Origin: Deltaproteobacteria bacterium
Lineage (GTDB): Bacteria; Bdellovibrionota; JACOXK01
Assembly (NCBI GenBank): GCA_016186995.1
Contig: JACPKQ010000020.1
Coordinates: 1-64,000 of the forward strand
Direction of reading: 5' to 3'
DNA length: 64,000 nt
Numbering within the stretch: the first letter of the stretch is position 1; every line of letters begins with the position of its first letter. Positions 3,113-52,518 of the stretch are shown piece by piece. The notes below the pieces were generated by a model. It saw nothing but the letters and a program-made list of their open reading frames with translations. It made no database searches and was not told where the DNA came from. A program made the position numbers and the translations under genes.

Positions 3113-3979
3113 TCATGATGACATTGTAAAACGTAACTTATATAGCATCACATAAACCATAGTAAAGAGACCTATGGCAAATGCTAAATGCAAAACTCTT
3201 ACTGCATAGGGTAAAGCAAACATCACATTTCCTATACCTAAAGCAAGTTGAAAAAGTGTTATTCCTAAAATTCCAAAAAGTGCTGATTTCAATTTTGACG
3301 GGATGGCTTGTTTAAATCCATAAATTGTAAACCCCACAACAAAAATAAAAACAACATAAGCTAAAATTCTATGTAAAAAATGGAAAACAATTCTGTAATC
3401 AAAAAAATGAGGCACCCACACGCCTAAGCATTTTGGAAATTCAGGACCACAAATAAGCCCAGCATGGCTTGAAGCGACAACCCCACCTACAAGAATTTGG
3501 ATGTAGATGAGGAGCAAAAGAAGAATGGTAAAGGTTTGGATTCCCGCCTTCGCGGGAATGACAGAGGGGTTTGAAAGACGTAGCCACATAGAAAGTAAAA
3601 GAGAGAAGAAAATAAGGGCAACCCCTAAATGGAATGTTACAAAATAATGAGGTGTACCTGCTAAAACAGTCACACCACCTAAAACGGCCTGGGCAATCAG
3701 TAAAATAAAAGCACTCACAACCAATTTTAAATATTTTTCTTTTAAATTGTTGTCTCTCACAATAAGAATGAGAAGAGCAAGTGTTAAGAAAACAACTAAG
3801 GAAGCAAGTAAGCGATGGGTCATTTCCAAAACAATATCAACACGAATGGGTGGTAAAAAACGCCCATGGCACAGCGGCCAATCAGGGCACGCAAGCCCCG
3901 CCCCTGCACTCCGAACAACACCACCCCACACCATCAGTATAAAAGTAAAAATAATATCTAATTGTAATAACTTTTTCAT
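3113..3979 (-). CDS. ctaA: Heme A synthase (COX15/CtaA)
   Basis: MVWGGVVRSAGAGLACPDWPLCHGRFLPP and ILVGGVVASSHAGLICGPEFPKC motifs; contains an in-frame SVIPAKAGIQ repeat insertion. Confidence 0.92.
   Translation of the reverse strand: MKKLLQLDIIFTFILMVWGGVVRSAGAGLACPDWPLCHGRFLPPIRVDIVLEMTHRLLASLVVFLTLALLILIVRDNNLKEKYLKLVVSAFILLIAQAVLGGVTVLAGTPHYFVTFHLGVALIFFSLLLSMWLRLSNPSVIPAKAGIQTFTILLLLLIYIQILVGGVVASSHAGLICGPEFPKCLGVWVPHFFDYRIVFHFLHRILAYVVFIFVVGFTIYGFKQAIPSKLKSALFGILGITLFQLALGIGNVMFALPYAVRVLHLAFAIGLFTMVYVMLYKLRFTMSS
3538..3569. repeat. Palindromic repeat inside ctaA (GGATTCCCGCCTTCGCGGGAATGACAGAGGGG)
   Basis: Direct reading; translated in frame as SVIPAKAGIQ. Confidence 0.75.
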
Positions 3980-3981
3980 AT

Positions 3982-4275
3982 CTACCGGACTAAAACATCC
4001 GAGAGGGTGAGTCCAACAAAAAGTGCCAAAAAGAAAAAAGCCGAAACAAAAACAACTTGATTCAGACGGTTATCTTCTATGAGATGCATGAAGTAAAGAC
4101 ACACGAGTGAGCCTTTAATCGTGGCAATGAGCATAGCAATAAAAATATTAAGAATACCCAAGTGAAAGGAAAGAGCCGTAAAAACAGTCATGGCTGTTAA
4201 AATAAGAAGCGCCACCCATACCTTTAAATAATTTTTTATATGATCCCCGCCTTCGCGGGAACGATGTTGACTCAT
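3982..4275 (-). CDS. coxD: Cytochrome c oxidase subunit IV family
   Basis: 97-aa KNYLKVWVALLILTAMTVFTALSF...LVCLYFMHLIEDNRLN; N-terminus encoded by a palindromic repeat (4241-4264). Confidence 0.85.
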   Translation of the reverse strand: MSQHRSREGGDHIKNYLKVWVALLILTAMTVFTALSFHLGILNIFIAMLIATIKGSLVCLYFMHLIEDNRLNQVVFVSAFFFLALFVGLTLSDVLVR

Positions 4276-4279
4276 ATTT

Positions 4280-4912
4280 TTATCCTATTAAATACAATAA
4301 AGGAAATAAGTAAATCCAAATAAGATCGACTAAGTGCCAAAAAAGCCCTACTAATTCAACAGGCGTATAATAAGACTCCCCCAAGTCCCCTCTCCGCGAT
4401 TTTAAATACACCCAAAAAATAAGACACATACCTGCAAAGACGTGAATTCCATGAAGCCCTGTCATAAGAAAATAAAGAGAAAAATAAAGTTGCATTTTGG
4501 GATGATGAGTTCCAGCATACTTAAATAGGCCACCTGGCAATAAACCCTCATGAATTTTATGAGTGTATTCAAAATATTTTATCACTATAAAGCAGGCTGC
4601 AAAAAAAAGTGTTAGAAGAAGCATTTTTTGAGCCTGTAGGTTTTTATTGAGGCGGGTGGAATTAACAGCCATAGCCATTGTAAAACTTGAACAAATCAAA
4701 ACAACTGTATTAATACCACCCATCATCACATTAAGATGATGAGAGGCTTCTCGAAACATTTCTGGATAAAGAGCACGGTTCACAATGTAAGCTACAAAAA
4801 GCCCACCAAACATCAAAATTTCTGTCGCTAAAAAAAGAAACAGCCCGAGCTTTGAAGATTGATAGGCCTGATCAGCACTTTCAAAATGATGAGGAAGAAC
4901 ATGCTCTGTCAT
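4280..4912 (-). CDS. coxC: Cytochrome c oxidase subunit III
   Basis: Typical subunit III motifs ([52 protein letters not shown]). Confidence 0.95.
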
Positions 4913-6486
4913 TTTTTCACTCCGTATTCATAAGGTCCTTCTGTAATTGTGGGTATTTCATAAAAGTTATCCACTGTAGGTGGAGATTCAGTATGCCACT
5001 CGAGCGTTTTACCACCCCACGGATTGTTTCCTGCTTTTTTACCCTTAAATAAAGACCACAACAATCCACCAAACATAAGTATAAGCCCTACATTTAAAAC
5101 CCAAGAACCCAAGGTTGCCAGTTTATGCAAACCTTCATACATAGGCTCATAAGTGGCGTAACGTCTAGGCATACCCTGGCGTCCTAACCAAAACATAGGT
5201 AAAAACGTCATATTAAAACCCACAAAAATAAAAAACCAAGAAATACGCCCAATCAACTCAGAATACATTCTTCCAAAGATTTTTGGCCACCAGTAATGAA
5301 GCCCTGCAAATAAAGCAATAACAGTGCCGCCCACCATGACATAATGAAAGTGAGCGACAACAAAATAAGTATCGTGCAGATGCACATCTACTGAAACAGC
5401 AGCCAAGAAAAGCCCTGTTAAACCACCGATAGTAAAAAGAAAAATAAAAGAAAGTGCATAAAGCATCGGGGTTTTTAAAACAATCGAGCCTTTATAAAGA
5501 GTCGCTGTCCAATTAAAAATTTTAATAGCAGTGGGCACTGCTACTAGCATTGTTAATATCGAAAATAAAAAATTAGCCCATGCAGATTGCCCACTGACAA
5601 ACATGTGGTGTCCCCACACAAGAAAACTAATGAAAGCAATTGCCAAACTTGAATAAGCAATCGCCTTATAACCAAAAATATGTTTTCTTGAAAAAACAGC
5701 AATCACTTCTGACACAATTCCCATTCCTGGAAGAATCATAATGTAAACAGCTGGGTGAGAGTAAAACCAAAAAAAGTGTTGGAAGAGAATAGGATCTCCC
5801 CCCAGTGAAGCATCAAAAATCCCCACCTGAAAAACTCTTTCCATCACCAATAACAAAAGGGTAATAGCAATAACAGGCGTTGCTAAAACTTGAATAATGG
5901 CTGTTGCATAAATAGCCCATATAAAAAGAGGCATTTTGTAAACAGTCATGCCAGGGCATCTTAATTTATGAGTGGTCACAATAAAGTTAAGCCCTGTCAG
6001 AATCGATGAAAAACCCATAACAAAAGCACCCATGGTTACTAAAATCACCGCTGTTTGTGTTTTAATGCTGTAAGGTGCGTAGAAAGTCCACCCTGTATCA
6101 ACACCCCCAAAAACTATGGCACTAGCTGCCAAAAGAGCACCTGCAATAAAAATATAATAACTTCCTAAATTAAGACGTGGAAAAGCAACATCTTTAGCGC
6201 CAATCATCATAGGAAGGAAAATATTTCCCAAGGCTGCTGGAATTCCAGGAATAATAAACATAAAAATCATAATGGCCCCATGAAAAGTAAAAAATTTATT
6301 ATAAAGATCTTTTGCAAAAGTGGCTTCAGGCGTCCACAGCTCATAACGTATGAGCGTAGAAAAAATCCCACCAATAGCGAAAAAAAGAAGTGTTGTGAAA
6401 AGATACATAACACCAATCTTTTTATGATCGAGTGTGACAAACCAGGATTTCCACCCACCTTCTTGTAAAAAATTTTTATGTTCCAT
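4909..6486 (-). CDS. coxA: Cytochrome c oxidase subunit I
   Basis: [34 protein letters not shown] heme-copper motifs. Confidence 0.97.
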
Positions 6487-7785
6487 TTAAATTCCCTTTA
6501 TATACTCCACCAAAGCCTTTATTTCCTCTTCACTTAATTCATGCTTATACGAAGGCATGAGGTTTGGAAATCCATCCACTACATACTGCCCTGGGTTTAT
6601 TAAAGACTCTTTTAAATATTTTTCACTTACCTCAATACTTCCTCCCCCTTGAAGTGGGCGGAGGGTGCCATAAATTTCTCTCAAACTTGGGCCCACACTT
6701 TTTTCACCATTGACTGTATGACACGCATTACACGCAAATTTTTCAAAATACTTCTCGCCTTTCTCTTCTAAACTTTCTTCATCCCCTTGAACCATGTCAT
6801 TGCGAGCCTGCGGAGCAGGCGTGGCAATCCCATCACTTAAACTCTTAAGATAAGCGACCACATGATTCACTTCCTCATCAGTGAGTTGTCCTCTAAATGT
6901 TGGCATAGCAGGAGGATACCCTTTAGAAATTTTTAGTTGTGGATCCATCAAAGACTCTCTCACATAATTCTCATCCATCAAAATTTCTCCACCACCTTCT
7001 AAAGGTCGCTTTGTTCCATAGGTTTTTAAAAAACTAGGCCCCACTAAAGGCTTTCCATCCACTGTATGGCAGGCATTACAAGCTTTCGCCTCAAAAACAA
7101 GGCGCCCTTTTTCTATAGGTGATGTGAGATCACCCTCTGTTTGTGTGGCTTCATCCTTCCAATTGTCATACCACTTTTTAAAAGCCTTGGGTCTTAAAAC
7201 CTTAACCCGCGCCAGCATTCGTGAATGATCAAAACCACAGTACTCAGCACAAAAGGCTGTATACTCACCCTCTTTCGTTGGCTTAAACCACAGCTTTGTA
7301 AATTGCCCTGGAACCACATCTTGTTTAATTCGAAAGTCAGGTATGTAAAAACTATGAATGACATCGGCTGAGGTCATCGTAAGTTTCACATCAGCCCCTT
7401 CAGGAACCACAAGCTCGTCTTTAAGTTTTCTTCCGTTAGGATATTCTGCATTCCAAAACCACTGCTTTCCAATAATATTAATCTCTAACGTTTTTTCTGG
7501 AGAATGAAGCATTTTTCTATAATCCATCCACCCCCAGGCAAAAATAACCATGACAAGAACAAAAAGAACCGCTGCCATAGCAAATTCAGTTGGTCCGTGG
7601 CCTTCTATATAAGGTGTAGAATCTTCTGCTTTGCGTTTTCTGTGGTATTTTAAAACAAAATACCCCATCATGCCCACAATAATAAAAAAACTTACAACAG
7701 AAACCCAAAAGATAAAATCATAAAGATGATCTACAAGAGGCGCAAAATTAGAAGCTTGAGGAAGTTTTGCAATAAGTGACATCAT
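6487..7785 (-). CDS. coxB: Cytochrome c oxidase subunit II fused to two tandem cytochrome c domains
   Basis: CuA motif FCAEYCGFDHSRM, then two CNACHTV domains, each ending in an M-containing segment; palindromic repeat in the inter-domain linker. Confidence 0.93.
   Translation of the reverse strand: MMSLIAKLPQASNFAPLVDHLYDFIFWVSVVSFFIIVGMMGYFVLKYHRKRKAEDSTPYIEGHGPTEFAMAAVLFVLVMVIFAWGWMDYRKMLHSPEKTLEINIIGKQWFWNAEYPNGRKLKDELVVPEGADVKLTMTSADVIHSFYIPDFRIKQDVVPGQFTKLWFKPTKEGEYTAFCAEYCGFDHSRMLARVKVLRPKAFKKWYDNWKDEATQTEGDLTSPIEKGRLVFEAKACNACHTVDGKPLVGPSFLKTYGTKRPLEGGGEILMDENYVRESLMDPQLKISKGYPPAMPTFRGQLTDEEVNHVVAYLKSLSDGIATPAPQARNDMVQGDEESLEEKGEKYFEKFACNACHTVNGEKSVGPSLREIYGTLRPLQGGGSIEVSEKYLKESLINPGQYVVDGFPNLMPSYKHELSEEEIKALVEYIKGI
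6797..6834. repeat. GTCATTGCGAG...CGTGGCAATCCC repeat in coxB linker
   Basis: Read directly; translated in frame as DGIATPAPQARNDM. Confidence 0.7.
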
Positions 7786-8681
7786 GTGAGTTTTTTTCTT
7801 CTTACTCGAGAAAGCATAAACATTAACAAAACTATTCCTAATACTGTTATCAAAGCCCCTACTTTCATAAAGTTTACCGCATAGAGAGAATATCTTCGAC
7901 CCTTCGGATCATAGTGATAACAAAAGAGAAGAAGTCTATCAACAAAATTTCCTATTTTTCCTTGGGATGCTTCAAGCAAAGAAAGCCGGAGATCTTTTTC
8001 TTTAAACTGAATTCCATAAAGTGTTCGTGAAAGAACCCCTTCTTGGGTTAATATAAAAAGTGCTGCCCCATGGGCAAATTGTTTTTGATCAGGATCGTAT
8101 TTGTAAGAAAAGCCGAGTTCCTCGGCTATCTTTTTTATATTTTCTTCTCGACCTGTTAAAAAATGCCAGTTCTCACTCACTTTTGTCATCGCGAGGGTTC
8201 TACAAGAACCCGTGGCGATCCCATCGCTACCGCGATGAGCTTGCTTCGTTTCACTCGCAATGACTTCTTTGGAGTGACAATATTCTTCTAAATAATTTTT
8301 CTTTTTCGCTTGAGCAATACGTGGGGTTTCTTTGGGATCAATACTGATACTTACAATCTTAAACTCGTCCCCTATATTCCATGAAAACTTTTTAAGAACG
8401 TCCACCAAACCATTTAAAAGAAGATTACAAAGATTGGGGCATGTATAATAAACAAGCGTTAGAATCACAGGCTTTGAATCAGAAAAAAGAGACCGTAAAG
8501 AGACTGTCTTTCCTTCCTCATTTATAAATTCTAAATCTAAAGAAATCTGAACCCCACGCTTATCTTCGATACCCACATCTTTAAGCTCATAGGGAACCGA
8601 CTCTGCTGCCCAAAGGTAAGGAAAAGTCATCCATACAATTAATAAACCCCTTAAAAAAAACATATAGCTACTTAAAATCAC
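7782..8681 (-). CDS. SCO1/SenC family copper-delivery protein
   Basis: TCPNLCNLLLNG CxxxC motif, VSIDPKETP, ENWHFLTG; ~26-aa repeat-encoded insertion before ENWHFLTG. Confidence 0.92.
   Translation of the reverse strand: MILSSYMFFLRGLLIVWMTFPYLWAAESVPYELKDVGIEDKRGVQISLDLEFINEEGKTVSLRSLFSDSKPVILTLVYYTCPNLCNLLLNGLVDVLKKFSWNIGDEFKIVSISIDPKETPRIAQAKKKNYLEEYCHSKEVIASETKQAHRGSDGIATGSCRTLAMTKVSENWHFLTGREENIKKIAEELGFSYKYDPDQKQFAHGAALFILTQEGVLSRTLYGIQFKEKDLRLSLLEASQGKIGNFVDRLLLFCYHYDPKGRRYSLYAVNFMKVGALITVLGIVLLMFMLSRVRRKKLT
8185..8264. repeat. 80-bp inverted-repeat element GTCATCGCGAG...CTCGCAATGAC inside the SCO1 gene
   Basis: Terminal inverted repeats read directly; encodes ASETKQAHRGSDGIATGSCRTLAMT in frame. 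Confidence 0.75.
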
Positions 8682-8806
8682 CCAAGATTTTAATTGTCAA
8701 TTTTAAGCATTAAAAAGATTGTAGCGATCCCATCTTCGCGTTTCATGAACTTCGTTGACAAAAAAAGACAGATTGATACATCAGTAAATACATTAAAGGA
8801 GATCCT

Positions 8807-8836: not shown

Positions 8837-8838
8837 AT

Positions 8839-9450: not shown

Positions 9451-9454
9451 CGAT

Positions 9455-12382
9455 ATGAAAACAGAAAAAACATATTGGAAAAGTTTTGAAGAGATTGCCG
9501 CGTTGTCTTCGACTCCTCGCAATGACAATGGGGGCGACACATCGTTTGATATTTCAAGAAGAAAGTTTCTATCTCTTTTAGGGGCTTCAATGGCACTGGC
9601 CACTACAAGTTGTAGAAGGCCCATTCATAAAATTATTCCTTTTGTCAAAGAATCTGAAGCTGCTAAGCCCGGAATTGCAGAATATTACGCTTCTTCTTAC
9701 CCTATCAGTGATCACTCACTCGGCGTTCTTGTAAAAACAAGAGAAGGTAGACCCATAAAAATAGAAGGAAACCCAGAGCACCCCTTAAGTTTAGGAGGAA
9801 CAAACAGTTTTGTACAAGCTTCTGTCCTTGAACTATATGATCCAGATCGTCTTCGAACACCTAAGATTAAAAATAAAAAAGTTTCCGTTGAGGAATGGGA
9901 TTATTTAACCTCTTCCATCTTGCGACATGCTCACAAAGAAAAAAAAGTAGTGAGAATCCTCACAGAATCAACGGGAAGCCCGACCTTAAGAAATACACTG
10001 AACAGTTTTGTTTCTCAATTTTCAAATGCAAAGTGGTATGAATACGAGCCTTTCTCTCATGAAAACAGTCGGGCTGCTTACAAAGCTTCTTTTGGCAAGG
10101 CTCATAAACCAAAAATTCACCTTGAAAAAGCAAACGTTATTTTAAGTTTAAATTCTGATTTTTTAGGGGCTGATCTTTCAGCACCCACCTACATTAAAAA
10201 TTGGACTTCAAAAAGAAAAGTTCACGATGTAAGCGCCACCATGAGCCGGCTTTATGCAGTTGAAAGCAGATTCTCTCTTACAGGTGCTAATGCTGATCAT
10301 AGGCTTGCTTTAAAGCCCTCAGAACTTCTTATTTTTGCTCTCAATTTAGCTCAACTTTTGACTCATGATTTTGACGGAAAAAAAATACCTTCTTTCAAAC
10401 ACCGTTCTTCTTTTTCAGAAGAATTTATAAAAACAGTGGCAGAAGATCTTGCCTCTAACAAAAAGAAATCACTTGTTGTTGTAGGAGATCAAGAGAGCGA
10501 AGAACTGCACATAGTTGGAAACTTTTTAAACTTTATCCTTGGAAATTATGGAGAAACAATCTCTCGTAAAATTCAATCACCTTCTTTTTTCAATGGAATA
10601 AAATCTATGACACCGCTTATTGAAGAACTTGAAAAAGAAAAAGTAGATGTTTTGATAACGCTAGGAGGTAATCCTGTTTATCATCTTGGTGAAAAATTTA
10701 GAGAAGCTCTTTCAAAAGTAAAAGAAAGCATTCGTGTGAGCCTTTATGAAGATGAAACAGCACACTCTTCAACTTATATTGCGCCTCTTTCTCATTATTT
10801 AGAATCCTGGAGTGATCAAGAACCGGAAACAGGGCTTTACAGCGTGGGACAACCTACCATTCAACCCCTCTACCCCTCAAAAAGCATGGGGGAAGTTTTA
10901 GTTCTTTGGGGTGCTGCGCTTGAAAAAAAAGAAATAGATGCACTTCAAGTGTGGAGAAACGCCATTAAATCTTACGCGCAAAAAAGTACAAATACGACAT
11001 GGAAAAAACTTCTCCATGATGGTGTTGTTAAAACAGACAAAATCTCTCCACAAAATTATGAATTTAATATGGCTGCTTTAGAATCCACGCTCATGCTTGT
11101 GGCATCACGAGCAGAGCGTAATGACAGCGGTGATGATATTTTTGAACTTCAACTTGAACCTAGTTCTAAGGTATGGGACGGGCGTTTTGCTAACAGTGCT
11201 TGGCTCCAAGAACTGCCACACCCGGTTACAAAAGTAACGTGGGATAACGTTGCCTCCATGAGCCCTGAGACAGCAAAAAACTTAAATGTCACACAAGAAA
11301 ATAAAATTGAAATAACCGCCAATGGCGCAAGCCTCGTACTTCCTGTATTTATACAACCTGGACTTGCTCAAAACGTCATTACAACAGAAATAGGTTACGG
11401 AAGAACGCATGCAGGATCTGTAGGAAGTCATGTTGGGGTTAATGTCTTTCCTCTTATTCAAGCAACTAACATTAAAGTTCAAAAAGTTTCTGGCAGTCAC
11501 GAAGTAGCAACAACGCAAAAACACCATGATCTGATGGGTCGACCTATTATTTTTGAATCGACCCTCGAAGAATACAAACAAGAACCCGATTTTCCAAAAA
11601 AACAACATCATGTACCTGAAATGCATTCTATGTATAAAAATGACCATGAATACAAAGGGCATAAATGGGGTATGACCATTGATCTTAACAGTTGTGTTGG
11701 GTGTAACGGATGTGTCACAGCGTGCGATTCTGAAAATAATATTCCGGTTGTAGGCAAAGAACAAGTTCTTAAAGGTAGAGAAATGCAGTGGATGAGAATT
11801 GATCGCTATTACGATACAACAAATGAACACTCACCTACCGTGCTTCACCAACCTATGCTGTGCCAGCATTGTGAAAATGCACCTTGTGAAAATGTATGCC
11901 CCGTTGTAGCAACCACACATTCTGACGAAGGTTTAAATCAAATGATTTATAACCGATGTGTAGGAACTCGTTATTGTGCTAATAACTGCCCTTATAAAGT
12001 AAGACGTTTTAACTTCTTCAATTTTAATTATGATATGCAATCTCCAGAAGAACTTGGAAAAAATCCTGATGTCACAGTTCGCTTTCGAGGGGTTATGGAA
12101 AAATGTTCCTTCTGCGTTCAAAGAATTCATGATGGAAAACATGCAGCAAAAATGGAAGGCGTTTCACTTCAAGACGGAAAAATTAAAACAGCGTGTCAAC
12201 AAGCCTGTCCTGCAGAGGCCATTGTATTTGGAGACCTCAATGATCCGAACTCTTCAGTTTCAAAACTTTCAAACCTCTCACACGGCTATCATGTACTTGG
12301 GGATCTCAATGTAAAACCTTCTATTACCTATTTAGCTAAAGTAAGAAATTACCATCCAAACCTTTTTAAATTTTATGAATAA
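9455..12382 (+). CDS. actB: Alternative complex III Mo-oxidoreductase-like/Fe-S fusion subunit ActB
   Basis: TAT-like [45 protein letters not shown] and further 4Fe-4S clusters. Confidence 0.95.
9493..9531. repeat. GATTGCCGCG...TCCTCGCAATGAC repeat within the actB 5' coding region
   Basis: Translated as [12 protein letters not shown] just before the TAT motif. Confidence 0.65.
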
Positions 12383-13757: not shown

Positions 13758-14331
13758 AAAAATTCTTTCAAAAATTCCTTTTTTACAGAAAAAGAAAACT
13801 TATAAAGGTTTAGCTTGCCAGTTTGGAGAACCTACCCATCTTTTGGAATCAGTGAAAGATTTAAAGGAACTGGGGCTTTCAAATATAGAGGTTTATACAC
13901 CTTATCCTGTTCATGGCCTTGAAAAGGTCTTAGATCTACCACGCTCTCAAGTACCTTGGATAAGTCTGATTGCAGGCCTTATAGGTTTTGTTGTAGCTGT
14001 CGCCATGCAGTGGTGGATGAGCGCTGTGAGTTATAAAATAAATGTCGGGGGGAAACCTTTGTTCTCAGGCCCTGCTTTTGTTCCTATTATGTTTGAAGTA
14101 ACAGTTCTTTTTGCAGCACTGGCTACCTTTGTAGGCCTTTGGGTCTTCTGTGGCCTTCCCAAATTTGCATCACCTTTTGAAAATGATGAAAGAGCTCTTC
14201 GCTCTACGAATGACGAATTTACACTTTATGTGTGTACTTCAGATCCACAATTTGATGAATCTAAAATTCGCAATGTCTTAAGTTCCAAAAAATGCTTCAA
14301 CATTCGATACTTGGGAGAAGAGGGAGAATGA
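13750..14331 (+). CDS. actD: Alternative complex III membrane subunit ActD (DUF3341)
   Basis: 193 aa, two TM helices, FALFGxPTHLL-like N-terminus ([16 protein letters not shown]); operon position. Confidence 0.9.
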
Positions 14332-14843
14332 AACTTAAGTTCTTGAAATGGCTGTATCCTCAAAAAATCTATGTTTCAAAAATTTTTTTGATACTCTTCT
14401 TTATAAGTATTAATATAGGATGTTCTAAGGGAAAACCTCCACTTATGATTATTCCTGATATGGATGATCAACAAAAAGTAAAACCACAAACTGCTCTACA
14501 CATACCTCCAGAAGAAACTGTTGCTCGTGGAAGTTTAGAAGAAAACAAAACAAAATTAGAAATGACCCCTCGAAACATCAGTCGAGGTGATTTTCTCTTT
14601 CAAACTTATTGTATGCCCTGCCACGGAAACGATGGTGAGGGCAATGGTCCTGTTGTTCAAAGAGGTTATATTCCTCCACCCCCCCTTATCACAGGGCGAG
14701 TCAAAGGGTGGAAAGATGAAGAAATCTATAACGTCATTGCAGAAGGCCAAGGAACCATGCCTTCTTACAAACACCTTGTTTCATCCAAAGATAGACAAGC
14801 TATTATATCCTATTTAAGAAAAAAACAGAGCGAGGCACAATAA
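14328..14843 (+). CDS. actE: Alternative complex III monoheme cytochrome c subunit ActE
   Basis: CMPCHGNDGEGNGPVV heme site; lipobox-like INIGCS; ATGA overlap with actD puts the start at 14328; N-terminus (MKLKFLKW) matches a dispersed repeat. Confidence 0.88.
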   Translation: MKLKFLKWLYPQKIYVSKIFLILFFISINIGCSKGKPPLMIIPDMDDQQKVKPQTALHIPPEETVARGSLEENKTKLEMTPRNISRGDFLFQTYCMPCHGNDGEGNGPVVQRGYIPPPPLITGRVKGWKDEEIYNVIAEGQGTMPSYKHLVSSKDRQAIISYLRKKQSEAQ

Positions 14844-14847
14844 AACG

Positions 14848-19660: not shown

Positions 19661-20989
19661 TTATGAAGAAAAAACAATATGATCTATCTTCTTTCTGACT
19701 GCTTCCTGTGGAATGCTTTCTATAATTTCACTTACAAAAGCATGAATGAGCATTTTTCGTGCTTCTTCCTCTGAAATACCTCGTGATTTTAAGTAAAAAA
19801 GCGCTTTTTGATCAAGCTGTCCTGTAGAAGATCCGTGAGTACACTCCACATCATCTGCATAAATTTCTAAATTAGGCTTTGCAAAAACTTGAGCGCCTTC
19901 TGATAAAAGTAAGTTTTTATTAATCTGACGTGCTTGTGTCCCTTTTGTTCCTTTAGCAACTATAATTTTGCCATCAAAAACTCCTTGAGCTTTTTCTTCC
20001 ACAACAGCTTTGAAAAACTGATCACTCACACAGTTGGAAACGTTATGTTCCACCAAAGTATGGAAATCAATCACCTGAGAACCTTTTGGTTTTAAAAGCC
20101 CCTTTAAAAAACACTGCGCATGTCCCTGCGTAAAAGGCACATTTACATCTTGTCTTGAAAATCTTCCACCAATGCCAAATAAAAAACTTCTCACTTCACT
20201 TTTTAACCCCTGCTCAAAATAAAGATCAGAAATATGAAAAGCATTTTTTCCCTCAAGCTGGAAACGATAATGTTCACATTGTGATTGTTCTTGTGTTACA
20301 ATTTGAGAAACAACAGAATTAAAATAGTGGGCGTTCTCTTCCCCTCCAAAAGATTCTAAAATAGTCACTTTCGAAGCTTTTCCTATGATAAAAAGATTCC
20401 TTAAATAATGAGCACTGTTAGAATTTGTAGAAAAATAAATAAAATGCAATGGTTTCTTTATTTTTTGACCCTCTCTTACATAAAGACAAGCTCCATTTGA
20501 AAAAAGCGCTGTATTTAAAGATGTAAAAGCATTTTTCTTCGAATGAAGTTTTTTATTCACATAGTTTCGAGCTATGTGAGGGTGACATTTTATAAACTCT
20601 TGTAAATTACCTAAAAATACTTGAGAAGGAAGATCTTCTATTTTAGATAAATCTTTTGAGAAAAGACCATTTATAAAAACAACTCTATAGCAATCAAGCC
20701 CTTCAAATATAAAAGGCTCAATATTTTCTTTCCCATCACCAAAGATTGCGAGATCACCACGGATTCTTTCAGAATCCTCGTGATGACGAGGTTTAAAAGA
20801 ACTCTCTAAAAAAGAAGAAATATCTGTATACTTCCATTCTTCTACTTTTTTGTTTGGAAATCCTTGTTTTTGAAATTGCTCTATGGCGCTGTCTTTAAGC
20901 TCTTTAAGCCAAGGAGACACACTTCCATTCAGAGATTGTTTTAAACTCTTGTATTGAGAAACATAATCTTGAACAGTGTGAAGTGTCAT
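19661..20989 (-). CDS. sufD: Fe-S assembly protein SufD
   Basis: DDVECTHGSSTGQLDQKALFYLKSRGISEEEARKMLIHAF; contains a palindromic repeat (20752-20789). Confidence 0.94.
   Translation of the reverse strand: MTLHTVQDYVSQYKSLKQSLNGSVSPWLKELKDSAIEQFQKQGFPNKKVEEWKYTDISSFLESSFKPRHHEDSERIRGDLAIFGDGKENIEPFIFEGLDCYRVVFINGLFSKDLSKIEDLPSQVFLGNLQEFIKCHPHIARNYVNKKLHSKKNAFTSLNTALFSNGACLYVREGQKIKKPLHFIYFSTNSNSAHYLRNLFIIGKASKVTILESFGGEENAHYFNSVVSQIVTQEQSQCEHYRFQLEGKNAFHISDLYFEQGLKSEVRSFLFGIGGRFSRQDVNVPFTQGHAQCFLKGLLKPKGSQVIDFHTLVEHNVSNCVSDQFFKAVVEEKAQGVFDGKIIVAKGTKGTQARQINKNLLLSEGAQVFAKPNLEIYADDVECTHGSSTGQLDQKALFYLKSRGISEEEARKMLIHAFVSEIIESIPQEAVRKKIDHIVFSS
20752..20789. repeat. Hairpin repeat inside sufD (GATCACCACGGATTCT-TTC-AGAATCCTCGTGATGAC)
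   Basis: Direct reading; translated as RHHEDSERIRGD. Confidence 0.65.
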
Positions 20990-34409: not shown

Positions 34410-34937
34410 TCACACAAACTTTTTTAAGTAACGATACATAATATAAATTAAAGAAATAAAAACCAAAACCCACTTTATCAAGGCACAAAAGGTGGCTAAG
34501 AATACAAGGTAAGAAAAGAGATCCTTCGCTGCGCTCAGGATGACGGGAGAGTCGCTCAGAACAACATTATTTAGTAAAATAAGATGAAAAGAATTTTCCA
34601 CCCAATCTAAAATGGCAGCAAGAAATGGTAGTAATAAAAAAGGTAGCTGTGCTTTCTGGATTCCGATAAGACTTGAAAGAAAAAAAGAATAAGCAATGGG
34701 AAAAAAATAATCAACATAAAGTATGTTTTTAAAAGCCTGTACGCCTTGATCTCCCCAAAGCATCAAGATGTTTTGAAAGGCTTCCAGAGAATAAACAAAT
34801 TGTATCTCTAAAGGTGTTGGAGAGTGTGAAGGGCGTGCTTGATCAAAATATCCAAAAATAAAAATACAAAGAAGACCTGCAAAAAAAGAACCCCATAAAA
34901 TGTAAGGAGATTTAAGTTTTTTATAAAAAGATTCCAT
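34410..34937 (-). CDS. Hypothetical membrane protein
   Basis: 175-aa polytopic ORF; contains in-frame repeat peptide SPVILSAAKDLF. Confidence 0.6.
   Translation of the reverse strand: MESFYKKLKSPYILWGSFFAGLLCIFIFGYFDQARPSHSPTPLEIQFVYSLEAFQNILMLWGDQGVQAFKNILYVDYFFPIAYSFFLSSLIGIQKAQLPFLLLPFLAAILDWVENSFHLILLNNVVLSDSPVILSAAKDLFSYLVFLATFCALIKWVLVFISLIYIMYRYLKKFV
34517..34553. repeat. GATCCTTCGCTGCGCTCAGGATGAC repeat within the 34410-34937 CDS
   Basis: Direct reading; encodes VILSAAKDLF. Confidence 0.65.
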
Positions 34938-35385: not shown

Positions 35386-35418
35386 CTTTGTCCCCTCCCA
35401 TCAAGGGAGGGGACAAAG
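35386..35418. repeat. Perfect 14-bp stem hairpin CTTTGTCCCCTCCC-ATCAA-GGGAGGGGACAAAG
   Basis: Direct reading; related to CTCTCCC-ATCAA-GGGAGAG at 51961-51980. Confidence 0.75.
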
Positions 35419-35423: not shown

Positions 35424-36530
35424 CTAAAATAAATATTCTGGTGTTGGAAATTTATTAACTAATAAATGCTTTGCTTCAGTAAAAACTGTTTTATATCCCT
35501 CATCTTCATAAGTTACATCAAATTTCAAAAGCCCTTTAAGAACAACCTCGACTGAAGCTCTTTCAAATAAAATTTTATAAAGCCCTTCTGTAATAGGCAT
35601 TGGAATTTGAAATTTTTGAGAAATTTCGTAAGCAATTTCCGTTGTATAAACCCCTTCTACAACCATTCCAATTTCCTTTAAAATAGCTTCTTTGCTTTTT
35701 CCTTGAGAGAGTAGCCTTCCAAAAGTATTGTTCCGACTTAAAGTTGAAAAACAGGTTGTTACTAAATCTCCCATTCCAGAAAGCCCCAAAAAAGTCTCCT
35801 TTTGTGCCCCTAAAAAAACTCCTAAACGAGTCATCTCTCCTAACCCCCGTGTTACTAAAAATGATTTTGAATTTGTTTGAAGTCCTAAGCCCGTTGCAAT
35901 TCCAGATCCAATAGCAATAATGTTTTTGAGCGCACCCCCTAACTCAACACCTTTTAAATCATAACTACCATAAACTTTAAAAGGAAAATAGGAACTGGAT
36001 CCCGGATCTTTGTGCGGGATGACAGAGGTAGAAAACAAATCGATAACATCATGAATGACTTCTTCATAATGAGAACCCACCACAGCCCCTGAGGGCTGAC
36101 CTGATAAAATTTCATTTGCAATATTAGGCCCTGAAAGAGAGCCTACTTTTTTACAACAGGTTTCCTCCTTAAGAATATCTGACATTGTTTTGCATGTTCC
36201 TTTTTCAATTCCTTTCGTACCACTTACAAGAATCTGATCGCCCCTCACTGTATGACCTAATTCAAAGGAAACTTCACGAAAAACTTGTGAAGGTACAATC
36301 ACAAATATAATAGAACAGTGATCTGTCACTTCTTTTAAATTTTGAGTTGCTTTTATTTTTTTGGAAAGTGGAGAAGAACCTGTATATTTCTTATTGGTGT
36401 GATACTCATTCATCTCATGTAACACTTCTCTATTTCGAGTGCACAAAACAACATCGCGCCCATTTGTAGCTAACAGATGTGCAACCGTTGTTCCCCAATT
36501 ACCCGAACCTATAACACCCACTTTATTCAT
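35424..36530 (-). CDS. gpsA: NAD(P)-dependent glycerol-3-phosphate dehydrogenase
   Basis: VGVIGSGNWGTTVAHLLA, LSGPNIANEI, VELGGALKNIIAIGSGI; contains palindromic repeat 35996-36030. Confidence 0.95.
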   Translation of the reverse strand: MNKVGVIGSGNWGTTVAHLLATNGRDVVLCTRNREVLHEMNEYHTNKKYTGSSPLSKKIKATQNLKEVTDHCSIIFVIVPSQVFREVSFELGHTVRGDQILVSGTKGIEKGTCKTMSDILKEETCCKKVGSLSGPNIANEILSGQPSGAVVGSHYEEVIHDVIDLFSTSVIPHKDPGSSSYFPFKVYGSYDLKGVELGGALKNIIAIGSGIATGLGLQTNSKSFLVTRGLGEMTRLGVFLGAQKETFLGLSGMGDLVTTCFSTLSRNNTFGRLLSQGKSKEAILKEIGMVVEGVYTTEIAYEISQKFQIPMPITEGLYKILFERASVEVVLKGLLKFDVTYEDEGYKTVFTEAKHLLVNKFPTPEYLF

Positions 36531-39841: not shown

Positions 39842-39942
39842 AACATCTCCTTCTTTATTGAATATCTCGGTTAGTTATTAGAAAATCTTAAACTCGGTTG
39901 TGTTCAAAAAGTCTGGGATCTTCATTCACCCTCACCTCAGAT

Positions 39943-39963
39943 CCTCTCCCCTCGAGGGAGAGG
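39943..39963. repeat. Hairpin repeat CCTCTCCC-CTCGA-GGGAGAGG
   Basis: Direct reading, intergenic. Confidence 0.6.
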
Positions 39964-40044
39964 AAGGAAAGGAGAGGGGGACAGAATTCGAGTCCATGAG
40001 AGAATATCCCAATTCAGAAACAAGGTGGTAGAAAAAGATGGAAG

Positions 40045-42105
40045 CTACGCTTTTATGCCAAAGACTTTGAAGATGAAAGTATATTCTAAGGCAAAATCTT
40101 TGAGATATTCATAACGTCCAGAGGCACCAAAGTGGCCAGATCCCATTTTAATATAAAGAAGCTGATAGTTTTTATCTTTTTTAAGATCTCTTATTTTAGC
40201 AATCCATTTAGCAGGCTCCCAATAACACACACGAGGATCATTAAGTCCTCCGGTAGCTAAAATATGGGGATACTCACCCTCTTTTAAATTATCATAAGGT
40301 GAATAAGACTTAATATACTCAAAATATTCCTTGTCTTTTGGGTTGCCCCACTCATCATACTCTATTTGTGTAAGTGGTAAGGTATCATCAAGCATTGTAT
40401 TTAAGGCATCCACAAAGGGGACGTGTGCTACGACTGCTTTAAAAAGCTCTGGCTTCATATTAAGTACAGCTCCTACTAAAAGCCCACCAGCACTTCCTCC
40501 TACAATGACAATTTTCCCCTTGGATGTATAATTGTGAGAGATGAGCTCTTCTGCTGAAGAAACTAAATCTTTAAAAGTATTTTTCTTTTTCAAAAACTTT
40601 GCATCTTCGTACCAATACCGCCCCTTTTCAGTACCACCTCGAATATGGGCTAAAGCAAAAATAAAACCCCTTTCTAAAATAGAAATCCGATTGCTCGAAA
40701 ACTGAGGATCAATACTAATACCATAAGCACCATATCCATAAAGATAAACAGGGTTATTTCCATTTTTTTTAAGCCCTTTTTTATAAACAAGATCCATAGG
40801 TATCTTTTCCCCATCCCATGAAGTTGTATAAATACGTTCTGTTTCATACAAAGAAGTGTCTACATTGGGTACAACTTTATCTTTCTTAAGTTCTTGTGTT
40901 TTTGTTTTCATATTATAATCAAAAACTTTAAGTGGTATGGTAGGAGACGTAAGCGTGTATCTTAAAATTGTTGTATCAAATTCAGGATTGGTAGAAAGAG
41001 AAAGCTTATAAACAGGTTCATCAACATGGATGTAATGTTCTTTGGCTTCAACTAAATTGATTACTTTTATAAAAGTAAGGGCGTCTTTTCTTTCAAAAAC
41101 TATCAGGTGTTCTTTAAAAGCCTCAATATCAGCGATAAAAACGTCCTTTTGCGGTGCAATAATTTCTTTCCAGTTTTCTTGTTCTGGGTGGTCCACATGC
41201 ACCTTACAAACACGAAAATTGGGGTGAAGATCGTTTGTGAGAATAAAAAAATCTTCTCCATGATGCGCTAAATAATATTCATGTCCGCGTTTTCTTTTTT
41301 GAATGAGTCTTAGTTTTGAGTTAGAGTCGTCAGCATCTAAAATATGATTCTCTTGTGTCATAGCACCATGGATAGAGAGCACAAGATACTTTTCACTTCG
41401 TGTCTTATGACACCCTACAAACATTTCTGCTGTTTTTTCTTCATACACTTTTATATCTTTTTTAGGGTCTTCCCCTAGGCAATGTTTATAAACAGCATAA
41501 GGCCTGTGGTTTTTATCTAAAATACTATACAAAAAGGTTTTATGGTCATTAAACCAAGCAATGCTTCCAGCGGTGTTTTCAATTTTTTCTGGAGCAAGCG
41601 TTCTACCCTCTAAATCTTTAATAAAAAGAGTGTATTTTTCACTTCCATCGAAATCACAACTATAAGCTAAAAGTTTGTGGTTAGAAGAAAGCGCAAAACC
41701 ACCTAAAGAAAAAAATTTCTGCCCACAGGCCAACTCATTTAAATCTAAAATGATTTCTTCTTGTGGATTCCCGCTCTTGCCGGAATGACGTGGCGTACGG
41801 CAATAAATTTCATATTCTTTTCCCGCTTCGTAACGATAATAATAGTAATATTCACCATCTTTTTGAGGAACTGAAGATTCATTTTCAAGAATTCTTGACT
41901 TAAGCTCTGTAAATAAATTTTCACGAAGTTCTTTTTCTGGTTCTAAAATAGATTCTGTATATTTATTTTCGGCTTCTAAATAGTGAGTCACCTGAGGGTT
42001 TTCTTTTTCTCGAAGCCAAAAGTAAGGATCTTCGAGTATTTCTCCATGTATTTTTGTAGTATGATTTTTTTTCTCTGGTTGGGGTGCTTTTAACGCTTCT
42101 TTCAT
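40045..42105 (-). CDS. Prolyl oligopeptidase family serine peptidase (oligopeptidase B-like)
   Basis: GGSAGGLLVGAVLNMKPELFKAVVA; DPRVCYWEPAKW; contains in-frame repeat RHSGKSGNPQEE. Confidence 0.94.
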   Translation of the reverse strand: MKEALKAPQPEKKNHTTKIHGEILEDPYFWLREKENPQVTHYLEAENKYTESILEPEKELRENLFTELKSRILENESSVPQKDGEYYYYYRYEAGKEYEIYCRTPRHSGKSGNPQEEIILDLNELACGQKFFSLGGFALSSNHKLLAYSCDFDGSEKYTLFIKDLEGRTLAPEKIENTAGSIAWFNDHKTFLYSILDKNHRPYAVYKHCLGEDPKKDIKVYEEKTAEMFVGCHKTRSEKYLVLSIHGAMTQENHILDADDSNSKLRLIQKRKRGHEYYLAHHGEDFFILTNDLHPNFRVCKVHVDHPEQENWKEIIAPQKDVFIADIEAFKEHLIVFERKDALTFIKVINLVEAKEHYIHVDEPVYKLSLSTNPEFDTTILRYTLTSPTIPLKVFDYNMKTKTQELKKDKVVPNVDTSLYETERIYTTSWDGEKIPMDLVYKKGLKKNGNNPVYLYGYGAYGISIDPQFSSNRISILERGFIFALAHIRGGTEKGRYWYEDAKFLKKKNTFKDLVSSAEELISHNYTSKGKIVIVGGSAGGLLVGAVLNMKPELFKAVVAHVPFVDALNTMLDDTLPLTQIEYDEWGNPKDKEYFEYIKSYSPYDNLKEGEYPHILATGGLNDPRVCYWEPAKWIAKIRDLKKDKNYQLLYIKMGSGHFGASGRYEYLKDFALEYTFIFKVFGIKA

Positions 42106-43270: not shown

Positions 43271-43273
43271 ACA

Positions 43274-45614: not shown

Positions 45615-45616
45615 CT

Positions 45617-46625: not shown

Positions 46626-46628
46626 AGA

Positions 46629-46874: not shown

Positions 46875-47968
46875 AAGATTGCCACGTCGTCTTCGACTCC
46901 TCGCAATGACAGAGGGGCTTTGATTGCCACGTTGCTGCACTCCTCGCAATGACGAAGTGTGTCATAGCCCTGATCCAAAATAAAAACATTTTTAAAACCA
47001 TTTTCTTCTAAAACTCCTTTTGCAAAGGGGGTTTTAAGATGTTTTTCACAATAAAGCACATAGGTTTTATCCTTATCATAATTCTTGAGCGCGTCAGGCG
47101 ATTGCAATAACGACCGATATGAAAGATGCTCGGCCCCTTCTAGGGCATCTTTTTCATATTGTTCACGTTCACGAATATCTAAAAGAATAATATTTTTGTC
47201 CTTTTTTTTCCAATTTAAATAGGTGTTATAAGATATTTCGGGAAGAGAAGTACGACCATTCAAGCAATTTTTATTTTTCTTGATTTTTATTTTACTCACT
47301 TCAAAGTTTTTTGTATCAATCAAATAAAGAAAAGACTGGTTCCCCTCCGGAAAAAGGATTTCTTGCAAAACAAGCTGGGCTTGGAACATCGCAACCATAC
47401 CCACACTTGGCCCCAAAACGCCACTTTCATTGCAATTTTGAAAAAGTCCTTCTTCAATGTTAGGGAAAATACAATTCAAACAAGGGCCTCGACTTCGAAA
47501 CACAGCACATTCTCCGTGCCACTGATCAATACTCCCATACACCCATGTTTTGTTATTCTGTTTACAAAAATTATTAATCAAAAAGCGCGTTTTGAAATTA
47601 TCTGTTCCATCTACTACAATATCAACATTAGATAAAATTTTATCAATATTATTTTTCTGGAGATGAATCGGAAAAGATTCAACACTTATTGTTGAGTTGA
47701 GTTCTTTTATTTTTTTATGCATCGCATGAGCTTTGTTTTCTTTAATATCTTTTTCAGAAAATAAAATTTGGCGATGAAGATTGGACAACTCAACACTATC
47801 ACCATCAATAAGTTTTATTCGCCCAACTCCAGCGGGAGCAAGATAAGAGGCTATTACGTTTCCAAGCCCTCCTACACCTACAACAGCAACACTTGCAGCG
47901 TTCAGTTTTTTTTGACCTGCTTCGCCTATTTCCGAAAGCTTGATTTGCTTTTCGTATCTATTTTGCAT
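46871..47968 (-). CDS. moeB: ThiF/MoeB-like adenylyltransferase with C-terminal rhodanese-like domain
   Basis: VAVVGVGGLGNVIASYLAPAGVGRIKLIDGDSVELSNLHRQILF; rhodanese-like DIREREQYEKDALEGAEHLSYRSL; tail encoded by repeats. Confidence 0.92.
   Translation of the reverse strand: MQNRYEKQIKLSEIGEAGQKKLNAASVAVVGVGGLGNVIASYLAPAGVGRIKLIDGDSVELSNLHRQILFSEKDIKENKAHAMHKKIKELNSTISVESFPIHLQKNNIDKILSNVDIVVDGTDNFKTRFLINNFCKQNNKTWVYGSIDQWHGECAVFRSRGPCLNCIFPNIEEGLFQNCNESGVLGPSVGMVAMFQAQLVLQEILFPEGNQSFLYLIDTKNFEVSKIKIKKNKNCLNGRTSLPEISYNTYLNWKKKDKNIILLDIREREQYEKDALEGAEHLSYRSLLQSPDALKNYDKDKTYVLYCEKHLKTPFAKGVLEENGFKNVFILDQGYDTLRHCEECSNVAIKAPLSLRGVEDDVAIL
46877..46953. repeat. Two tandem GATTGCCACG...CTCGCAATGAC repeats at 3' end of moeB
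   Basis: Copies 46877-46910 and 46922-46953; encode the [19 protein letters not shown] tail. Confidence 0.75.
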
Positions 47969-47969
47969 A

Positions 47970-48491
47970 TTAATTAGATTTAGATCCCCGCCTCCGCGGG
48001 GATGACGGGGACGGATGCTCTGCTGTTCCTCTTAAAATTCCCAAACCATGTTCCAAAACTGGCATCAGAATTTCTAAAGATTCTTCTACCCCACGAGAAG
48101 AGCCTGGAAGATTAATAATAAGTGAGTTTTTACGAAGCCCCGCTATGGCGCGTGATAAAAGAGCCAAGGGTGTTTTTTTAAAACCCTCGAGTCGCATCAC
48201 CTCTCCAAAACCAGGAACCTCCCGTTCAATCACTTTCTTTGTGGCCTCAGGAGTAATATCTCTTTTTGAAAAACCTGTTCCTCCTGTAGTTAAGATAAGC
48301 CCCACACTCATTTCATCTACAAGTTTCTTTAAGTGGTTTTCAATAATATCCATTTCATCTGGAATGACTTCATAAGAAACAAGCTTGCAACTTGTATTCT
48401 TAAACATTTCTTGAATAATCTTGCCACTTTTATCAATACGCTTTCCTTCAGAACAACGATCACTGACTGTAACAATAGCTAAAGTCATCAT
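47970..48491 (-). CDS. mog: Molybdenum cofactor biosynthesis protein MoaB/Mog
   Basis: VSDRCSEGKRIDKSG; LTTGGTGFSKRDITPEAT; C-terminus encoded by a palindromic repeat. Confidence 0.92.
   Translation of the reverse strand: MMTLAIVTVSDRCSEGKRIDKSGKIIQEMFKNTSCKLVSYEVIPDEMDIIENHLKKLVDEMSVGLILTTGGTGFSKRDITPEATKKVIEREVPGFGEVMRLEGFKKTPLALLSRAIAGLRKNSLIINLPGSSRGVEESLEILMPVLEHGLGILRGTAEHPSPSSPRRRGSKSN
47982..48010. repeat. AGATCCCCGCCTCCGCGGGGATGACGGGG palindrome at 3' end of mog
   Basis: Direct reading; encodes PSSPRRRGSKSN tail. Confidence 0.7.
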
Positions 48492-49003
48492 AAAATATCC
48501 TGGATCCCAGCCTTCGCTGGGATGACACTCCTTGTCATTCCCGCGGAGACGGGAATCTTATTTGATTTAGTTTTTTCTAAAAGGCGAATGTTTTCAAAAA
48601 ACATGTTTTTATCTACCGCCTTACACATGTCATAAATCGTTAACAAAGCCACGTTCACTGCCGTTAAGGCTTCCATTTCAACCCCTGTTTTGGCACTTGT
48701 TATGACTTGAGCTTGCACTTCAATCCCCCCTTCTTGAAATTCAAAATCTATACTCACATGATCTAAGTTAAGAGAATGACAAAGAGGAATAAGATCTGCT
48801 GTTTTTTTAGCCGCTTGAATACCTGCAATGCGAGCACAAGCAAATACACTTCCTTTAGGTATTTTTTCATTTCGAATTTTTTCTAAAACAGATGGCGACA
48901 TTTTAATAAAACCTCGAGCCCGAGCATATCTCTCAACAATAGGTTTAGCCTGCACCGGAACCTGTCTGATTTCTCCTTTTTTATCTAAATGTGTCAATTT
49001 CAT
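48488..49003 (-). CDS. moaC: Cyclic pyranopterin monophosphate synthase MoaC
   Basis: LIPLCHSLNLDHVSIDFEF; KTGVEMEALTAVNVALLTIYDMCKAVDK; C-terminal SVIPAKAGIQDIL from repeats. Confidence 0.95.
   Translation of the reverse strand: MKLTHLDKKGEIRQVPVQAKPIVERYARARGFIKMSPSVLEKIRNEKIPKGSVFACARIAGIQAAKKTADLIPLCHSLNLDHVSIDFEFQEGGIEVQAQVITSAKTGVEMEALTAVNVALLTIYDMCKAVDKNMFFENIRLLEKTKSNKIPVSAGMTRSVIPAKAGIQDIL
48501..48557. repeat. Two adjacent palindromic repeats at 3' end of moaC
   Basis: GGATCCCAGCCTTCGCTGGGATGAC and TGTCATTCCCGCGGAGACGGGAATC. Confidence 0.75.
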
Positions 49004-49015
49004 ACTTCTCCTTTG

Positions 49016-50242: not shown

Positions 50243-51221
50243 TATTTACAAAACTTTGTACATTTCCAATTTGTCCCTTTCCTAAATCATGGTGTTTGGG
50301 TTTCAATCGTAAGTTTTCTATTAATGTCTCTTCTAGTTTTTTCTCCCAATGCGAAGAACGTAAAATAGAAAGAAGATTTCTATCTTCCTGGCTAAAGAGG
50401 CACAGTTTGAGATCTCCTTTGGCTGTTATCCTGATTCTATTACATTTATCACAAAAATTATGTGATAAAGGAGAAATAAAACCAATTTCTCCTTTTCCCC
50501 CATCCACTTTAAAATAAGAAGAAGGCCCGGTTTGTTCTTTTTGAATTTTGGGGGTTAAAGAAAACTTTTCTTTTATTCTTAAAAGCGCCTCATGATTTGA
50601 AAAATAATAAACTTGATGCTCAGCTTGAGTAAAACCTGTCGGCATAAACTCAATAAACCGTACAATAAAAGGATAGTGAATAGAAAATCTTACAAAATCA
50701 AAAAGCTCTTCATCATTCATACCCTTGACAAGAACGGCGTTTATTTTAATAGGCTCCAAACCTACGTCATAGGCTTTCACAATACCTTTTTTGACTCTTT
50801 CTAAACTTAAAGTTTGCGTTATTTTTTGAAAAGATTTTTCATTTAGAGAATCAAGACTTACATTGACTCTGTGAAGGCCTGCTTCTTTTAAATCAAAGGC
50901 TTTCTTTTCAAGAAAAAAACCATTTGTAATCAAAGAAATATCTTGAATATAAGAATTGTCGCGCAAAACCCTCACAATATCTACAATATCTTTTCTCAAG
51001 AGAGGTTCTCCCCCAGTAAGTTTAACTTTTCTAATCCCTAGTCTTCCTAAAACAATAAAAAGTTTTTCGATATCAGCAACTGTTAAATAAGAATGATCAG
51101 GTACAAATTCTTGTTTAAAAAGTGAAGGTCTGCAATAAAAACATTGAAAATTACACTTATCAGTCACAGAAAGTCTTACGTAATCAATTTTTCTATTGTA
51201 TGGATCAATGAGTTGCTTCAT
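50232..51221 (-). CDS. moaA: GTP 3',8-cyclase MoaA (radical SAM)
   Basis: VTDKCNFQCFYCRP CxxxCxxC; KLTGGEPLLRKD; C-terminal CDKCNRIRITAKGDLKLCLF and GG end. Confidence 0.96.
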   Translation of the reverse strand: MKQLIDPYNRKIDYVRLSVTDKCNFQCFYCRPSLFKQEFVPDHSYLTVADIEKLFIVLGRLGIRKVKLTGGEPLLRKDIVDIVRVLRDNSYIQDISLITNGFFLEKKAFDLKEAGLHRVNVSLDSLNEKSFQKITQTLSLERVKKGIVKAYDVGLEPIKINAVLVKGMNDEELFDFVRFSIHYPFIVRFIEFMPTGFTQAEHQVYYFSNHEALLRIKEKFSLTPKIQKEQTGPSSYFKVDGGKGEIGFISPLSHNFCDKCNRIRITAKGDLKLCLFSQEDRNLLSILRSSHWEKKLEETLIENLRLKPKHHDLGKGQIGNVQSFVNIGG

Positions 51222-52518
51222 AAATACCTTTTCTTAAATATTGAACTCCATAATAAACACCACTACCCACTAAAAGAGCTCCTCCTGCATGCCAAAATAC
51301 AAAAGCACAACTTGTAGCCACTAAAGACACAACTTCTTTAAAACCACGAATTAAAAAAGCGCGCTTACAAAGATCAAAAGCTGGAAATATAAATAAAATC
51401 CCCAAAAGAGGTTTTGGGAAGTGTGTTGCAAGGGTCAAGAAAAAAGAACCTAATAAAAGTGCAACGGTTATTTTTAAAAAGCCCAAAAATACAATACTAA
51501 AACCAGTACGCGCTCCAAATATCATTTGTGCTGCTAAGCCCCCTGCACCATGACACGAAGGCATACCTCCAAAGGGGCACGTCAGTAAGTTGACCAAACC
51601 TACAGATTTTGAGATCTCTGAAACACCCACATGAGATTGTGGAAACTCATCTTGAATGAGAAGTGCTGGAGAAAAAATAGAGTTAGCCATTGTGAGGGGA
51701 AGCTGAATAAGGATCAGCAACAATATTGTTTGAGTACTGGATGACATGAAAGAATCGGGGGATGACAATAATGGTAGTTGGAGAAACTCTAATGAAAACC
51801 CTATATGAGGAAAAGCAAGCACCCCACTGTCAGATAAAACAAAAATACCAAAACCAAAAATTAAAAAAGTGAGAAGAAATTGTAATTTATGAAAGAAAAA
51901 GAACAAAAAGAAAATGACAAAAAAGAATAAGATCCCTATTAAGACACCCTCGCCCCACTCCTCTCCCATCAAGGGAGAGGGCGTTGAGAAGATTAATTCG
52001 AAGGCTTTTTTTAAAAAAACAATTCCCAAGCCCAGTTGGATCCCTCGAATGACAGCTTGTGGAAAAAAACGATAGAGTTTTTCGAAAAGATGGAGGTCAT
52101 TCAAAATAAGGATCACAACTCCCAAACAAAAACCTGCCAAGAGTAACTCTCCTTGAGAAACTCCGTAAGTAATAGCGTAAAGCCCCATTGCCTTCATAGG
52201 CTGCAAAGGAAGTGGAATTTTAAAGATAAACCCAATCACAATGTGACAAAGACCACTCCAAAAAAGAATACTTAAAGGGTTAAAACCTGCATGTTGTGAC
52301 AAACCCACTATGAGTATAAAAAAAAGTGGAAGATCTCCAAGTGCACCTGAAATTTCATGAATATAAAAAGAAAGCTTGTTCAAAAAATCTCCTTTCCAAA
52401 CTTGGGGAGGAAGAAGCGTTTCCATTTCTTCCCTATCGGTCTTAAACCTTAACAACAATGGATCCCCGTTTTCACGGGGATGACATTCTGCCGTAGGTTT
52501 TAAGACTCGGAGAATCAA
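51205..52518 (-). CDS. MOT1-like sulfate/molybdate transporter
   Basis: PLQPMKAMGLYAITYGVSQGELLLAGF and PFGGMPSCHGAGGLAAQMIFGARTG; Moco operon context; contains repeat-derived TPSPLMGEEWGEG. Confidence 0.8.
   Translation of the reverse strand: MILRVLKPTAECHPRENGDPLLLRFKTDREEMETLLPPQVWKGDFLNKLSFYIHEISGALGDLPLFFILIVGLSQHAGFNPLSILFWSGLCHIVIGFIFKIPLPLQPMKAMGLYAITYGVSQGELLLAGFCLGVVILILNDLHLFEKLYRFFPQAVIRGIQLGLGIVFLKKAFELIFSTPSPLMGEEWGEGVLIGILFFFVIFFLFFFFHKLQFLLTFLIFGFGIFVLSDSGVLAFPHIGFSLEFLQLPLLSSPDSFMSSSTQTILLLILIQLPLTMANSIFSPALLIQDEFPQSHVGVSEISKSVGLVNLLTCPFGGMPSCHGAGGLAAQMIFGARTGFSIVFLGFLKITVALLLGSFFLTLATHFPKPLLGILFIFPAFDLCKRAFLIRGFKEVVSLVATSCAFVFWHAGGALLVGSGVYYGVQYLRKGIYEATH
51947..51988. repeat. 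CTCTCCC-ATCAA-GGGAGAG repeat inside transporter CDS
   Basis: Direct reading; translated STPSPLMGEEWGEGV. Confidence 0.65.
52459..52484. repeat. TGGATCCCCGTTTTCACGGGGATGAC palindrome at transporter 5' end
   Basis: Direct reading; encodes CHPRENGDPLL. Confidence 0.65.

Follow-up and report, generated by a model that had tools for sequence, protein, structure and literature searches.

Palindromic elements in the window

The window, by which we mean the whole stretch of 64,000 nucleotides analyzed here, belongs to contig 14 of a 1.68-Mb MAG (93% complete, 30 contigs, GC 37%). Relatives of its CoxA carry names such as Deltaproteobacteria and Bdellovibrionales, among others, and the lineage is therefore probably Bdellovibrionota-like. 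It holds a cox/ACIII/Suf/Moco gene neighbourhood interspersed with short palindromic repeats, comprising eight copies of family A, six exact half-sites of family B, three copies of family C and a copy of family D. Some of them lie outside genes. A family A copy at 2982..3007 (- strand) is intergenic and has no coding flank, a family C copy at 39942..39964 also lacks a coding flank, and another family C copy lies between genes at 35391..35413. Another dispersed repeat (CTTAAGTTCTTGAAATGG; TTTACATAAAGTTACCTAG), outside families A-D, was observed near A copies at window positions 1483-1560, 2876-2943 and 14331-14361.

Other elements lie inside open reading frames. Among the respiratory genes, ctaA (on the - strand) contains a family A copy at 3538..3563 (+ strand) whose peptide, SVIPAKAGIQ, falls in an inter-helix loop. 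Another copy of this family, at 4241..4266 (+), supplies RSREGGD at the N-terminus of CoxD. Neither is a provable insertion, because the ortholog loops of CtaA are similar in length and the N-terminus of CoxD varies across orthologs. CoxB forms a fusion with two cytochrome c domains (6487-7785), and a family B singlet (DGIATPAPQARND, 6795..6831) occupies the linker between them. The cytochrome c domain to which this linker leads is additional and absent from most orthologs, and an insertion is not provable there either. SCO1 gave a much cleaner picture. Its full family B doublet of about 81 bp (VIASETKQAHRGSDGIATGSCRTLAMT, 8184..8264) corresponds to a clean 27-residue insertion that was missing from 14 orthologs. 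An AlphaFold model of the protein had the SCO fold with a mean pLDDT of 89, and the insert, at 55-72, had the lowest values of the model. ActB carries a family B singlet near its N-terminus, ahead of the RRKFL motif (9493..9527, +), and a degenerate family B-like element in its middle linker (11099..11134, +).

Further along the window, a family B-type element (RHHEDSERIRGD, 20752..20788) in the N-terminal region of SufD is likely an insertion, although the alignment is weak in this region. A family D copy (34519..34544, -) encodes VILSAAKDLF in a membrane protein. At the inter-domain boundary of GpsA, a long-loop variant of family A (SVIPHKDPGSSSY, 35994..36028, +) adds extra residues compared with the structure 1z82. 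The family A copy in a prolyl oligopeptidase (RHSGKSGNPQ, 41765..41790, +) is not a clean insertion, as it brings just about four net extra residues relative to G001. Three Moco proteins stop inside elements, so that their C-terminal tails are supplied by the repeats: a MoeB-like protein by two tandem family B singlets (46875..46953, -), a Mog-like protein by a family A copy (HPSPSSPRRRGSKSN, 47982..48007, +) and a MoaC-like protein by an opposed pair of family A copies (48502..48558). Lastly, the reading frame of a MOT1-like transporter contains a family C copy (TPSPLMGEEWGEG, 51946..51984) and, at its 5′ end, a family A copy (52460..52485, +). The true start is probably downstream of the latter, where a better Met is found.

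All eleven peptides spelled out in an earlier note on this sequence were found in frame, inside open reading frames, where it had placed them, and the three Moco C-termini were as it had described. Its MOT1-like assignment held for the family C copy and probably failed for the N-terminal family A copy. Not all of the sites on its list can be shown to be insertions. By alignment, the sites in SCO1, ActB and GpsA are clear insertions, but those in CtaA, CoxD, CoxB, SufD and the oligopeptidase could not all be proven. Its suggestion that the repeats create new segments in linkers, loops and termini agrees with the alignments and with the SCO1 model, in which the insert was of low confidence and the rest of the fold was confident.

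Copy number and anatomy of the repeat families

Families A, B, C and D are real palindromes dispersed in the 1.68-Mb MAG. We found 67 genomic copies of family A (GGATYCCCGCCTTCGCGGGRATGA) at three or fewer mismatches, 80 copies of the family B half-site GTCATTGCGAG and about 18 loci of family C. The reversed control gave zero hits for each of the three, and the repeats are thus commoner than expected by chance. The earlier note's count of at least three families was correct for A, B and C; VILSAAKDLF belongs to a fourth palindrome family, D (GTCATCCTGAGCGCAGCGAAGGATCT), which is smaller, like family C. In five contigs of this genome (C2, C3, C7, C10 and C15 of G000), an element lay about 150 bp or less from the contig end, and the repeats therefore probably break the assembly.

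The family A consensus is TGTC-AT[TC]CC[CAT]GC-GAAG-GC[GTA]GG[AG]AT-C[CT]A, or, from the tag onward, TGTC-ATTCCCGC-GAAG-GCGGGAAT-CCA. It consists of a TGTC tag, an 8-bp stem starting with AT, a 4-nt loop and a CCA tail. GTC was present in nearly all of 74 copies and was preceded by T in 59 of them and by C in nine. The loop is GAAG or a variant of it, some variants having a long loop, and the unpaired tail reads C[CT]A in most copies. Among 34 distinct copies, 98.5% of the stem cells were paired and there were 37 two-sided changes versus 10.6 in shuffles, figures to be read with the caveat that the copies were gathered because they resembled one of two consensus sequences that are themselves palindromic. 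The signal disappeared when the partners were slid.

A family B singlet has the form GTCATTGCGAG-X-GCAATC, with a basal stem of about 5 bp (ATTGC/GCAAT) and a long and variable inner hairpin. In a full copy, two singlets stand head to head and flank a central palindrome that swaps among several versions, and the GTC tags point outward at both ends. The doublets are not built in multiples of three: their lengths ranged from 78 to 125 bp and included every residue modulo 3.

Distribution relative to genes and reading frames

The location of the elements was scored in stretches around A, B and C copies, which amounted to about 0.4 Mb, or some 24% of the genome, and were picked by copy presence. 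The codon model was trained on the open reading frames of the window. Calls were made at a cut-off of 2, and wrong-frame stretches never scored above 4. The classifier overlooks hydrophobic membrane stretches, such as that around the MOT1 family C copy. Coding sequence in one frame was found on both sides of 16% of the family A copies and 16% of the family B copies, compared with 59.7% of random positions. In this 24% sample, the elements are about fourfold depleted from gene interiors.

About 26 copies were scored as internal between same-frame coding flanks, and all of them were in frame, with no confirmed frame-breaking copy; a few of the family B calls among them (L127, L180) resemble half-sites that arose by chance and carry one mismatch, which does not affect the conclusion. 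The earlier note had proposed such a count of in-frame against out-of-frame copies. Five copies were flagged between coding stretches of differing frames. One was an in-frame element near a C-terminus, another was at a gene end, and the three in the window were at gene ends; none was a confirmed gene-breaker. Of 18 family A copies within genes, 12 were read in the hydrophilic DSRLRGND frame (P ~2e-5 against an expectation of 1/5), the frames being assigned by hand from the classifier output. One forward frame of family A always carries a stop, and no in-gene copy uses that frame.

Host genes

By their Pfam names, the hosts included UvrC, RecJ, MutS, an AddA-like helicase-nuclease, an SPL-like protein, RNase HII, RNase R, ValS, ThyX, riboflavin synthase, Lpd, a CcsA-like protein, PurN, a PurL-like protein, an outer membrane efflux protein, PepP and ScpA. 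Insertions were seen against solved structures (PDB chains) for ValS, RNase R, Lpd, PurN, RecJ and GpsA. The most heavily decorated genes were those of DNA repair. The uvrC gene (L120:15699-17744) has at least five palindromic elements, long-loop A variants among them. Its product, of about 675 residues compared with 567-610 in relatives, contains a block of about 32-38 residues that is lacking in G002, G003 and G010. The UvrC of G001, with 648 residues, seems to hold inserts of its own. In MutS, which has three to four elements, blocks of 48 and about 27 residues were missing from five relatives. Repair genes made up five of about 30 hosts (P ~0.006 with an assumed background of 4%), a figure that is only suggestive of enrichment.

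The density of repeats in bioenergetic genes had been regarded as unusual in the earlier note. We could not uphold this: the depletion from gene interiors is general, the hosts have all kinds of functions, and repair genes are the most decorated. The window just happens to hold the cox/ACIII/Suf/Moco neighbourhood.

The element in the middle linker of ActB differed between genomes: it was B-like in the one studied here (G000), a composite of D-like type in G001 and a copy of family A in G002. Close to the N-terminus, both G000 and G001 carried a B singlet of their own. In the ActA of G001 (L111, ~2300-2430), we also observed an in-frame insert that resembles a degenerate element (IATSPGFPLLAAPKGGND). 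A similar same-site case was reported for recB in Xanthomonas (PMC3733652).

Mobility and spread

Neither a Y1_Tnp gene nor an IS110 gene was found in this 93%-complete genome, which speaks against RAYT and IS110 as movers of the elements here. Y1_Tnp was present in four other carrier genomes and in the non-carrier G001, but no A or B copies were found in the sequence fetched around these Y1_Tnp genes. In four relatives, the fetched flanks of Y1_Tnp and IS110 genes were likewise free of A and B copies.

At one or fewer mismatches, family A occurred in nine of 291 genomes of the phylum, with a patchy distribution. All nine carriers (G213, G238, G010 and class relatives) have genomes of 1.2-2.0 Mb, and the pattern suggests that family A is linked with small genomes. 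The exact 27-mer of family A was also found in 34 IMG/VR contigs. When the literature was searched for the repeat sequence, the sole matches were to unrelated primers.

Comparison with known repeats

Di Nocera and colleagues (2013; PMC3733652) described CGTC REPs, which have a CGTC/TGTC end, an 8-bp stem starting with AT, a 4-nt loop and a CCA tail. Their stem variants keep pairing, dimers occur, and the superfamily takes in RPE-4 and RPE-6 of R. conorii. Judged by its architecture, family A is a REP of the CGTC-1 type: it agrees in tag, stem, loop and tail, and also in the absence of a flanking dedicated transposase. Family B shares the CGTC/TGTC tag and the head-to-head dimers, but it lacks the 8-9 bp stem with a 4-5 nt loop; with a basal stem of only about 5 bp, it is called CGTC-like only. 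The published CGTC REPs differ from ours in lineage, in the loops of family B, which are longer and variable, with swappable central hairpins, and in the number of elements per gene, which here reaches five in uvrC.

The likeness to Rickettsia palindromic elements (summarized in PMC10969869) that the earlier note had pointed out is borne out through the CGTC superfamily. In-frame copies in many unrelated protein genes and a small genome are shared features. RPE-1 is much longer (~100-150 bp), and the phylum is a different one. The likeness considered here is one of architecture and in-frame habit. The core of family A further agrees in pattern with dRS3 of Neisseria, ATTCCC(N8)GGGAAT, which is described as part of intergenic mosaic elements and as the target of a filamentous prophage (PMC3898611). 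Copies whose loop is CTGC correspond in pattern to the Nf1 subtype ATTCCCRCCTRCGCGGRAAK. REPINs and BIMEs, which are associated with RAYT transposases (GTAG REPs), share paired, head-to-head palindromes with our families. Unlike these, our copies are without the GTAG tag and the genome is without Y1_Tnp.

Probable origin and tolerance of the in-gene copies

We are confident that the elements are REPs (A of the CGTC-1 type, B CGTC-like, and C and D further palindromic families) that would have been copied around the genome as non-autonomous hairpins, pruned by purifying selection and tolerated in frame. The lack of Y1_Tnp in this genome, and of A or B copies in the flanks fetched around the Y1_Tnp genes of other carriers, weighs against this reading. 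Insertion was probably blind to frame. As copies that break genes would be purged by purifying selection, most survivors would be found between genes, at gene ends or, when inside a gene, in frame. Copies inside genes would survive where a loop or linker tolerates a hydrophilic peptide some 8-30 residues long. The decorated genes stay open and, to judge from this, the stop-free and frame-keeping inserts are presumably read by the ribosome.

It could be argued that the proteins are unaltered because splicing removes the inserts or the ribosome skips them, as with introns or mitochondrial byp elements. The elements are indeed strong hairpins, and palindromic inserts in yeast mitochondria are bypassed, as cited in PMC6649704. 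Yet neither process needs inserts to keep the frame or to be free of stops. As the copies within genes preserve the frame and avoid the one that bears a stop, we reject this explanation as very improbable. It is hardly conceivable that the peptides of the window stem from inverted repeats that arose by chance or from ordinary protein sequence. Although the CtaA loop and the oligopeptidase are unclean insertions, the absence of hits in reversed controls, the stem covariation and the clean insertions at other sites speak against chance, which is refuted for families A and B.

Selection might also have retained the peptides in place for new functions, as linkers or regulatory loops, chiefly in respiratory and repair proteins. 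The different elements in the ActB linker of three genomes, the preferred frame of family A and the strong decoration of repair genes are all in line with it. Nevertheless, we consider it improbable: the overall depletion from genes and the varied, unrelated hosts fit tolerance, and tolerance by itself already predicts the hydrophilic frame. The authors of PMC3733652 also saw insertions in varied proteins as an argument against functional constraint. With barely more conviction, we mention that permissive linkers (the middle of ActB and the sites in UvrC and MutS) might have been filled time and again, and independently, by different palindrome families across lineages, owing either to a benefit from the added peptide or to an insertion hotspot at the site. 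If this were true, the repeats would be more than tolerated debris and would supply proteins with new segments again and again.

Tolerated insertion of REPs is not new in itself. In-gene copies, with dimers that encode 20-30 residues, hosts that are often repair genes, related genes hit at similar sites and the lack of a dedicated transposase have already been published (PMC3733652). What is new here is the lineage; the phenomenon, known from Rickettsia and other bacteria, is ordinary in kind and rich in degree. In-frame insertion of REPs has its best documentation in Rickettsia, and our results add to it a lineage with small genomes, akin to Bdellovibrionota, in which decorated genes are many and can hold several elements each. 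For annotators, such peptides should be recognized as repeat-derived. Carrier and non-carrier species amount to natural insertion mutants, which map the tolerance of essential proteins to extra sequence.
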